Shown here one piece after another: positions 1 to 22,608 of a stretch of DNA of 25,451 nt (position 1 is the first letter of the stretch; every line of letters begins with the position of its first letter). The stretch is from a virus, in the IMG/VR virus record IMGVR_UViG_3300031851_000162, positions 1-25,451 of that record, one strand, 5' to 3'. Both the position numbers and the translations under genes were made by a program. The notes under the pieces were generated by a model. That model was not told the origin of the DNA. It did not search any database and saw only the letters and a program-made list of their open reading frames with translations.

Positions 1-156
1 CGTCTTATGTCTCTACCAGAAGACTATAAACTTACTGGTACTTTTGATCAGAAAGCCGAACGCATTGGGCGCATGGTCGCTCCAAAGATGATGGCGGCTC
101 TTGCTGATTCGATCTATGAGAAAGTTATAAAACCATATTATGAGGTAACAAAATGA
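1..156 (+). CDS. C5-cytosine DNA methyltransferase, C-terminal fragment (5' end outside window)
   Basis: Only the last 51 codons are visible; the reading frame is open at the left edge and stops at 154-156. The fragment has the layout of the end of a C5-cytosine DNA methyltransferase: a Leu-Pro-Glu-Asp-Tyr stretch with a following Leu-Thr-Gly, then Glu-Arg-Ile-Gly and a helix like the one after motif X (usual form Ile-Gly-Asn-Ser/Ala-Val-Pro-Pro). Here the motif reads Ile-Gly-Arg-Met-Val-Ala-Pro, so the usual Asn is Arg (codon 70-72). This family transfers the SAM methyl group to carbon 5 of cytosine. The stop overlaps the next start (ATGA), so it is coupled to the CmoA-like gene. The catalytic Pro-Cys and Glu-Asn-Val motifs lie outside the window, so activity cannot be judged here. 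Confidence 0.72.
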   Translation, partial: RLMSLPEDYKLTGTFDQKAERIGRMVAPKMMAALADSIYEKVIKPYYEVTK

Positions 157-854
157 GTGATTTTACATTTGCACATCGTGAAGAAGGGTTCGACAACCAC
201 ATCGAACAAAGTATCCGTGGGTATAGCAACCTACACCAAGACGTAGTAGATTTATCAAGATACTTCGTAGATGAAGAGAGTAACGTGTATGACGTTGGTA
301 GTTCAACTGGTAAGACTATACAAGCTATGGCTGATCAGAACTATGAGTTTGCACCGAAGGCTAACTACATCGGTGTTGAGTTTGCAGAAGGTTTCAAGGG
401 CGACATGGAGAAGCGTGTCCGAAGTGTAGAGAAAGCACACCCAGGTACTACTGTAGAATTTATCTATGATGATATTCGCAATGTTGAAATTGAGAACGCA
501 TCACTAGTTACATCTCTCTTTACGTTACAGTTCATGCCACCCATTAGTAGACGTGCCGTTGTATCGAAAATCTATAAGGGTCTGAACACTGGTGGTGCGT
601 TTATCTTCGCAGAAAAGACTGTAGCCAAAGATGCACGTTTGCAAGAGATGTTGACATTCAACTTCTATGACTACAAGCGTAAGTCGTTTGATACAGAAGA
701 TATCATGGACAAAGAACGTACTCTTCGTAACATGTTGAAGCCTAACACTTGGACTGAGTTGTGTTCAACTCTTTCATGTTCTGGGTTTGACTTGTACAAG
801 ATACAACCGTTCTGGCAGAACCATCTATTCGTAGGTGCGATTGCTATAAAATAG
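153..854 (+). CDS. CmoA-like carboxy-S-adenosylmethionine synthase
   Basis: The 233-aa protein matches CmoA over nearly its full length (E. coli CmoA is 247 aa). It has an N-terminal Phe-Asp then Ser-Ile-Arg-Gly-Tyr-Ser-Asn (20-26), SAM motif I Tyr-Asp-Val-Gly-Ser-Ser (46-51), acidic residue Glu76 at the ribose-binding position, Asp-Asp-Ile-Arg (106-109), Glu-Asn-Ala-Ser then Phe-Thr-Leu-Gln-Phe (114-127), and Lys-Ile-Tyr-Lys-Gly-Leu-Asn-x-Gly-Gly-Ala (139-149). CmoA converts SAM plus prephenate to carboxy-SAM (Cx-SAM), normally used by CmoB for tRNA uridine-34. Arg189 lies within one residue of the position of E. coli Arg199, which contacts the Cx-SAM carboxylate; the exact alignment needs checking. 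No CmoB is present in the window. The gene overlaps the DNA methyltransferase stop by 4 bp, which points to DNA rather than tRNA as the final target. It could also be a diverged ordinary methyltransferase. Confidence 0.85.
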   Translation: MSDFTFAHREEGFDNHIEQSIRGYSNLHQDVVDLSRYFVDEESNVYDVGSSTGKTIQAMADQNYEFAPKANYIGVEFAEGFKGDMEKRVRSVEKAHPGTTVEFIYDDIRNVEIENASLVTSLFTLQFMPPISRRAVVSKIYKGLNTGGAFIFAEKTVAKDARLQEMLTFNFYDYKRKSFDTEDIMDKERTLRNMLKPNTWTELCSTLSCSGFDLYKIQPFWQNHLFVGAIAIK

Positions 855-877: not shown

Positions 878-906
878 TTGACAATGTACGTGAAATAAGT
901 TATATT
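878..906 (+). promoter_or_regulatory. Early sigma70-like promoter
   Basis: TTGACA (878-883), a 17-bp spacer, and TATATT (901-906) lie in the 120-bp gap before the DUF262-HNH gene. The same 17-bp architecture recurs at least eight more times in this window. Confidence 0.85.
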
Positions 907-974
907 AATACACAAGTGATCAGAGCAATTCAGCCAGCATCACTGTATAAAGCAAACAGCAAAGTGAGAATACT

Positions 975-22026: not shown

Positions 22027-22608
22027 ATGATTATGCGACAAGAAAAATTAAAACTATTATACAACATATCAACATGGGATAAGATTGGTCTAAACTTTTG
22101 GGGTATACCCAAAGCAGGCAATACATCAATCAAATATCTATTGCATCAAGTATCTAGTAATGATATACTAGAATCAGATGAAAAAACGCAGTGGGTTCAT
22201 GACCACGAATATACGACATACATCTCACCAGATCAAGCACTCAATAATGAGTTTGCTAATATTGCTGTTACACGTAACCCGTATAAAAGGTTTATCAGCA
22301 TGTGGAAAGATGTTAAAAGAAGAGGTCCTGAGTTTGCAGTATCATGTAAAACTGTAGATGAATTCTTGTTTTACTTAGAAAATACACTAGACAAGAAACG
22401 GAACGTTCACTTCAGAACTCAGAGATACTTTTTACATGAAAATGTGAAGTGTATAGATATTACTGATACAGACGCATTACAAACTTATTTGAATCATCCT
22501 ATACCACATAAGAATATACTTGAGGGTGACATACAATTGAGTGACAGCCAAAAAGAAAGGGTATACAATGTATATAAAAATGATTTTGAATTTTTGGGAT
22601 ATAAATGA
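22027..22608 (+). CDS. Sulfotransferase family protein
   Basis: The 193-aa protein has the two PAPS-binding signatures of sulfotransferases: Gly-Ile-Pro-Lys-Ala-Gly-Asn-Thr-Ser (26-34, 5'-phosphosulfate loop) and Ile-Ala-Val-Thr-Arg83-Asn-Pro-Tyr-x-Arg-Phe-x-Ser91-Met-Trp (79-93, 3'-phosphate site). It would transfer sulfate from PAPS to a hydroxyl or amino group. It is short, but both ends look natural. ATG 22027 or 22033 may be the start. The next gene overlaps it (ATGA) and may act on the same substrate, perhaps a surface glycan or a virion component. Confidence 0.82.
   Translation: MIMRQEKLKLLYNISTWDKIGLNFWGIPKAGNTSIKYLLHQVSSNDILESDEKTQWVHDHEYTTYISPDQALNNEFANIAVTRNPYKRFISMWKDVKRRGPEFAVSCKTVDEFLFYLENTLDKKRNVHFRTQRYFLHENVKCIDITDTDALQTYLNHPIPHKNILEGDIQLSDSQKERVYNVYKNDFEFLGYK

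Follow-up and report, generated by a model that had tools for sequence, protein, structure and literature searches.

A marine T4-like phage fragment that probably opens inside a cytosine hypermodification cluster, with a linked nuclease-like gene behind a covarying leader

The closest described system is that of Synechococcus phage S-B43, in which CmoA makes carboxy-SAM, the C5-methyltransferase homologue CmoX uses it to convert cytosine in GC motifs to 5-carboxymethylcytosine, and CmoY joins glycine to this base (Yang et al., Nat Commun, 7 Dec 2025; PMC12783734). Wild-type S-B43 CmoX accepts carboxy-SAM as its sole cofactor, its modification blocks HhaI, and S-B43 virion DNA contains the glycine amide with no detectable 5cxmdC (PMC12783734). 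The specificity of CmoX was traced to Arg350, which replaces Asn304 of HhaI (structure PDB 8YF3); the same study listed 5,615 CmoX candidates with SPPC and Arg350, and associated a ParBc (PF02195) protein of unclear role with the pathway (PMC12783734). The engineered M.MpeI N374K is like CmoX in having a basic residue for the motif-X Asn and in accepting carboxy-SAM; it is, however, an engineered and CG-directed enzyme, whereas phage CmoX is natural and that of S-B43 recognises GC (PMC12783734). The bacterial CmoA/CmoB pathway for tRNA cmo5U34 is related to the phage systems through CmoA homology and the shared cofactor; it differs in that no CmoB was found in 14 related phage records and the partner of their CmoA is a DNA C5-methyltransferase homologue. 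In E. coli CmoA, Arg199 holds the carboxylate of carboxy-SAM in a salt bridge (PMC3663124).

Here we analysed a 25,451-bp virus fragment (the window) from a marine, T4-like phage. The window starts inside a gene, and the remainder of this methyltransferase and anything upstream of it lie beyond its edge. With a probability of about 0.9, it opens inside a CmoY-CmoX-CmoA hypermodification cluster of the known phage type, with the pathway running as follows. CmoA would convert SAM and host prephenate to carboxy-SAM. CmoX would bind the carboxylate through its motif-X Arg and carboxymethylate the cytosines of phage DNA at C5. CmoY, whose gene stands immediately before cmoX in the nearest relatives, would probably link glycine or a similar amine to the carboxylate as an amide, and the resulting bulky base would protect phage DNA from restriction. 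This chemistry has been demonstrated in S-B43 and is ascribed to the window phage by homology and key residues. Genes downstream match a T4-like replication set that comprises the sliding clamp, the two clamp-loader subunits, RegA, dUTPase, Hsp20, DNA polymerase, ligase, UvsX and the replicative helicase. Cyanophage S-CRM01, with a similar replication set, has its own CmoA-CmoX pair between the clamp-loader genes and regA. The window also encodes a sulfotransferase-family protein at 22027-22608 (Pfam E 1.4e-12).

Table 1. Positions of the features in the window
Feature	Position	Strand	Basis
cmoX, C-terminal 51 codons and stop	1..156	+	only PDB match 8YF3; 51/51 identical in L002-L004
Diagnostic Arg codon (IG-R-MVAP)	70..72	+	8YF3 alignment; equivalent to S-B43 CmoX Arg350 and M.HhaI Asn304
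ATGA stop/start overlap coupling cmoX and cmoA	153..156	+	sequence
cmoA, carboxy-SAM synthase of the phage (S-B43) subfamily (predicted)	153..854	+	56% identity to SpCmoA; PDB 1im8/4gek/4iwn
Sigma70-like promoter TTGACA-17-TATATT, upstream of N	878..906	+	11/12 consensus matches
Leader hairpin AGTGAT-CAGAGCAATTCAGCCAGC-ATCACT	915..944	+	covariation; covariance-model match
N, GmrSD_N (ParB/DUF262-like) and HNH putative endonuclease, 461 aa	975..2360	+	Pfam in family, invariant residues, model

The first open reading frame (ORF 1-156) is open at its 5' end and encodes 51 residues, RLMSLPEDYKLTGTFDQKAERIGRMVAPKMMAALADSIYEKVIKPYYEVTK, followed by a stop. Compared with all PDB chains, these residues gave a single match, 8YF3 (S-B43 CmoX), at E 2.6e-10; the match to Pfam DNA_methylase (PF00145) was weak (E 0.034) and under the curated cut-off. 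GRMV of the window aligns with GRMV of 8YF3, which places the CmoX Arg in the fragment. The full-length cmoX genes of three near-identical relatives (L002-L004) end in the same 51 residues, and their products have SPPC, ENV and the diagnostic Arg. Across the 97 long CmoX homologues compared, SPPC and ENV were found in all and an equivalent of Arg350 in 96, the sole exception being a frame-broken copy. ORF 1-156 is the C-terminus of a CmoX-type protein, a predicted DNA cytosine C5-carboxymethyltransferase. The catalytic Cys, ENV and the cofactor-binding part of the window phage's own CmoX would be encoded beyond the window edge, as would its cmoY. As the SPPC region is missing from the window, this record could not have been among the 5,615 published candidates.

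ORF 153-854 is complete (233 aa, ATG start). It matches CmoA structures from E. coli and H. influenzae (4gek, 4iwn and 1im8; E 1e-26 to 1e-28) and, with 56% identity over 231 aa, the experimentally proven S-B43 CmoA (SpCmoA). Where the E. coli protein has Arg199, phage CmoA has Glu, with an Arg four residues on: position 199 is Glu in 105/105 aligned phage CmoAs, the window protein and the active SpCmoA among them, and position 203, one helical turn further, is Arg in 104 of the 105. As Glu replaces Arg199, we class the window protein as a phage CmoA and not as an E. coli-type CmoA. A reasonable inference from these alignments is that the carboxylate-binding Arg may have shifted by one turn in phage CmoA. 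In this region, the E. coli CmoA sequence used for both residue alignments is consistent with that in the 4gek alignment. The CmoA of a Staphylococcus SPbeta-like phage has Ser199 and Arg203, and those of phage PaBG and an Erwinia phage retain Arg199.

The two genes are joined by a 4-bp overlap, the TGA of ORF 1-156 sitting in an ATGA shared with the start of ORF 153-854. Among the best 80 of 349 relatives in IMG/VR, which were the ones examined, CmoX lies directly 5' of CmoA in nearly all. The CmoX-then-CmoA order occurs in 95 loci with the gene ends mostly overlapping; the commonest junctions are overlaps (-4 in 13 loci), and the arrangement is far beyond chance. In L002-L006, the closest among the IMG/VR matches examined, CmoA is 97-98% identical to that of the window and cmoX is upstream. 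The gene order is Y-X-A with overlapping genes in L002-L005, cmoY being directly upstream of cmoX; from these near-identical relatives we infer a cmoY in the window phage as well. All three genes (Y, X and A) are present in about 60 of the 101 related loci. A search for CmoB (TIGR00452) in 14 related records, which include S-B43 and S-CRM01 and of which two are complete phage genomes, gave no match. These results bear out the first-pass annotation, which had reported the 4-bp overlap of the end of a C5-methyltransferase with a CmoA-like gene and the absence of CmoB from the window, and had proposed looking for conserved adjacency of the two genes and for Pro-Cys and Glu-Asn-Val motifs in the missing part of the methyltransferase, which are found as SPPC and ENV in the full-length near-identical copies.

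Compared with the S-B43 system, the locus shares a homologous CmoA (56%), a CmoX with the carboxylate-binding Arg and a T4-like phage, and the nearest relatives of the window also share CmoY. The gene order differs, being A-Y-X in S-B43 and Y-X-A in the relatives of the window. As CmoX of this subclade is only ~47% and CmoY of the near-identical relatives ~46% (46% for the ligase) identical to the S-B43 proteins, the target motif and the ligated amine may differ from those of S-B43. The S-B43 target dinucleotide GC is not depleted in the window (observed/expected 1.04). A further difference is that no GmrSD_N-HNH homologue was detected near the cmo genes of S-B43, whereas the window has one after cmoA.

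Some loci elsewhere show other combinations. A 42-kb contig without detectable CmoX (L154) encodes a CmoY-like ligase at 1200-2123, which suggests that there are ligase homologues with another substrate. In the Staphylococcus SPbeta-like phage (L291, 3947-5646), cmoA adjoins an HhaI-like methylase in which a script-based check detected no PPC motif and no CmoX Arg pattern; this is possibly a variant, possibly an ordinary methylase. In Pseudomonas phage PaBG (L293, 821-5991), genes for a Vsr-like endonuclease, a ParB-like nuclease, a C5-MTase, cmoA and an asparagine synthase are clustered, and the C5-MTase carries a GRSV Arg.

We considered two other readings of the chemistry. CmoX might be an ordinary 5mC methyltransferase, with CmoA serving tRNA cmo5U34 together with a host CmoB and the adjacency of the two genes incidental. 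Bacterial CmoA homologues do serve tRNA, and some annotators label the phage genes tRNA methyltransferases; yet the motif-X Asn is replaced by Arg in all but one of the 97 CmoX homologues, the genes adjoin and overlap in about 95 loci, cmoB is missing from the 14 related records, and wild-type S-B43 CmoX takes only carboxy-SAM (PMC12783734), so that we regard this reading as highly improbable. We rejected a tRNA cmo5U role on the absence of CmoB from the 14 related records and the carboxylate-binding Arg of CmoX, and an ordinary 5mC methyltransferase on the same Arg. Alternatively, the phage could stop at bare 5-carboxymethylcytosine, without a ligation step. Only X-A is seen in 33 of the 101 loci with X or A, cmoY being missing from the retrieved stretch, and S-CRM01 has A-X without an annotated ligase beside it. 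However, many of the loci without cmoY are short contigs, and in each of the near-identical L002-L005 cmoY directly precedes cmoX. We consider a pathway that ends at the bare base unlikely.

The preferred reading thus remains the full CmoA-CmoX-CmoY route. As cmoX of the relatives lies behind cmoY, an amide derivative is likelier than bare 5-carboxymethylcytosine in the virion DNA, and by analogy with S-B43 both an amide end product and protection from restriction would be expected in the window phage. As S-B43 virion DNA contains the glycine amide without detectable 5cxmdC, a search for 5-carboxymethyl-dC alone could mislead. The first-pass annotation had proposed that the phage makes its own carboxy-SAM and uses it on its DNA, with a modification that could block host restriction. 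For the homologous S-B43 genes both the mechanism and resistance to HhaI have been shown biochemically (PMC12783734); the interpretation as a carboxymethylation system was therefore essentially right, but it is already published and not new. Its suggested end product, bare 5-carboxymethylcytosine, is probably not the final base, given cmoY in the nearest relatives and the amide in the S-B43 virion.

Downstream of cmoA, ORF 975-2360 (N) has no Pfam match on its own, and PADLOC lists for it a model of a type II restriction enzyme (E 6e-6). Among 47 N homologues, Pfam detected HNH (PF01844) in 10 and GmrSD_N in 3. Residues D83, G84, G85, R87, R89, N149 and T152, which include the DGGxR and the Asn of the ParB/GmrSD_N domain, and H417, N431 and N440 of an HNH site are invariant in the 47 sequences, and Q35 and R36 are nearly so. 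An AlphaFold2 model built from the 47 sequences (pLDDT 89) took the place of a 7-sequence model (pLDDT 67) that we dropped as too poor. It matches ParB, BrxU and HNH-domain structures, weakly (E about 0.01 to 0.3); the match to the HNH-domain fold 4h9d has prob 1.0 but E 0.04. An analysis of GmrSD names the motifs QR, DGQ(Q/H)R and FxxxN and an HNH domain (PMC4619093). N resembles the type IV enzymes GmrSD and BrxU in its ParB/Srx-like N-domain with a QR pair, DGGxR and FxxxN-type motifs, and in its C-terminal HNH domain, whereas it differs from them in being encoded by a phage, in its linkage to a modification operon and in its very low sequence similarity. Pfam found HNH families and no DUF1524 (GmrD) C-terminal domain among the N homologues. 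As DUF1524 is missing, we term N 'GmrSD-like' and do not file it as a GmrSD member.

N homologues occur alongside Y, X and A in the orders Y-X-A-N, N-Y-X-A, X-A-N-Y and X-N-Y-A, and junctions of N to Y are -4 bp in 9 loci and +3 bp in 7 loci. No match to N was found in GenBank phages. That N is the published ParBc protein is not supported, as PF02195 was found in 0/32 records; the main text of the S-B43 study nowhere mentions HNH (PMC12783734). In PaBG, the annotated ParB-like gene is a separate one, next to the genes for its MTase, CmoA and asparagine synthase.

All 10 sequences compared have a promoter-like site between cmoA and N that matches at 10/12 positions or more, and behind the promoter-like site of the window stands a hairpin with the conserved internal motif CAGAGC...GCCAG. 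In 18 leaders from divergent N loci, 96.5% of the cells were paired and the covariation was 0.871, against 0.310 ± 0.041 for shuffles and at most 0.221 for slid controls. An extended set gave 79 double changes against 21, this set being itself fitted to the model. The window hairpin scored 38 bits (E 1.3e-7) with the covariance model. Run over 845 kb, the model matched 36 sites at E < 0.01. An N gene follows each of them (truncated by the end of the contig in L009), except for a second site in L101. As a control for specificity, we took 80 IMG/VR loci with an exact match to the 14-base core motif. These contained no N homologue, and the best leader-model match in them had E 0.015; exact 14-base matches in IMG/VR are thus mostly chance. 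As the single window leader folds no better than its own shuffles (z -0.13), the case for the leader rests on covariation and not on folding energy. Nothing points to a known riboswitch, as Rfam gave no match to the leader. Overall, the hairpin almost always precedes the N nuclease family and is family-specific, and its role is likely post-transcriptional control of N. By eye, L126 and L133 have two tandem leader hairpins just upstream of N. Elsewhere in the window, positions 2627-2655 hold a perfect 12/12 sigma70 consensus with TG, within the exonuclease-like ORF 2357-2989.

What N does beside these genes can be read in two ways. It might be a functional partner of the modification, sparing hypermodified phage DNA and cutting unmodified DNA of the host or of competitors, or attacking differently modified rivals in a type-IV-like manner. 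Its place in the same operon as Y, X and A in several orders, with 4-bp N-Y overlaps or 3-bp gaps in 16 loci, the invariant HNH residues and the resemblance to GmrSD/BrxU restriction enzymes are consistent with this. However, X is absent from 31 of the 34 contigs that have N and no nearby X (all fragments), many cmoX loci show no N, and N stands in a replication-gene region, which could bring genes together anyway. A restriction-modification-like pairing of the modification with N is plausible, and the partner role itself we hold only tentatively, at less than even odds. HNH genes are common phage passengers, and N could instead be an HNH endonuclease with a homing or housekeeping role and no relation to the modification; that it occurs also without CmoX fits this. 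The repeated stop/start coupling to cmoY, a ParB/GmrSD_N domain typical of restriction enzymes and the family-specific structured leader speak against a mere passenger, which we think doubtful. That the whole cluster might be a phage-borne restriction-modification-like weapon, in which self-marking hypermodification is combined with a leader-controlled N that would destroy unmodified DNA of the host or of competitors, is a speculative proposal that we would sooner doubt than accept.

The nuclease-like gene N, the coupling of its homologues to cmoY, and its own sigma70-like promoter and covarying leader go beyond the main text of the S-B43 study (PMC12783734). With the cmoX-cmoA pair, the carboxymethylcytosine pathway reaches one more clade of T4-like phages, whose CmoX and CmoY have diverged and in which new target motifs and amide side chains could be sought. 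The adjacent nuclease-like gene and its RNA leader suggest a function, open to experiment, for such genes around this pathway.
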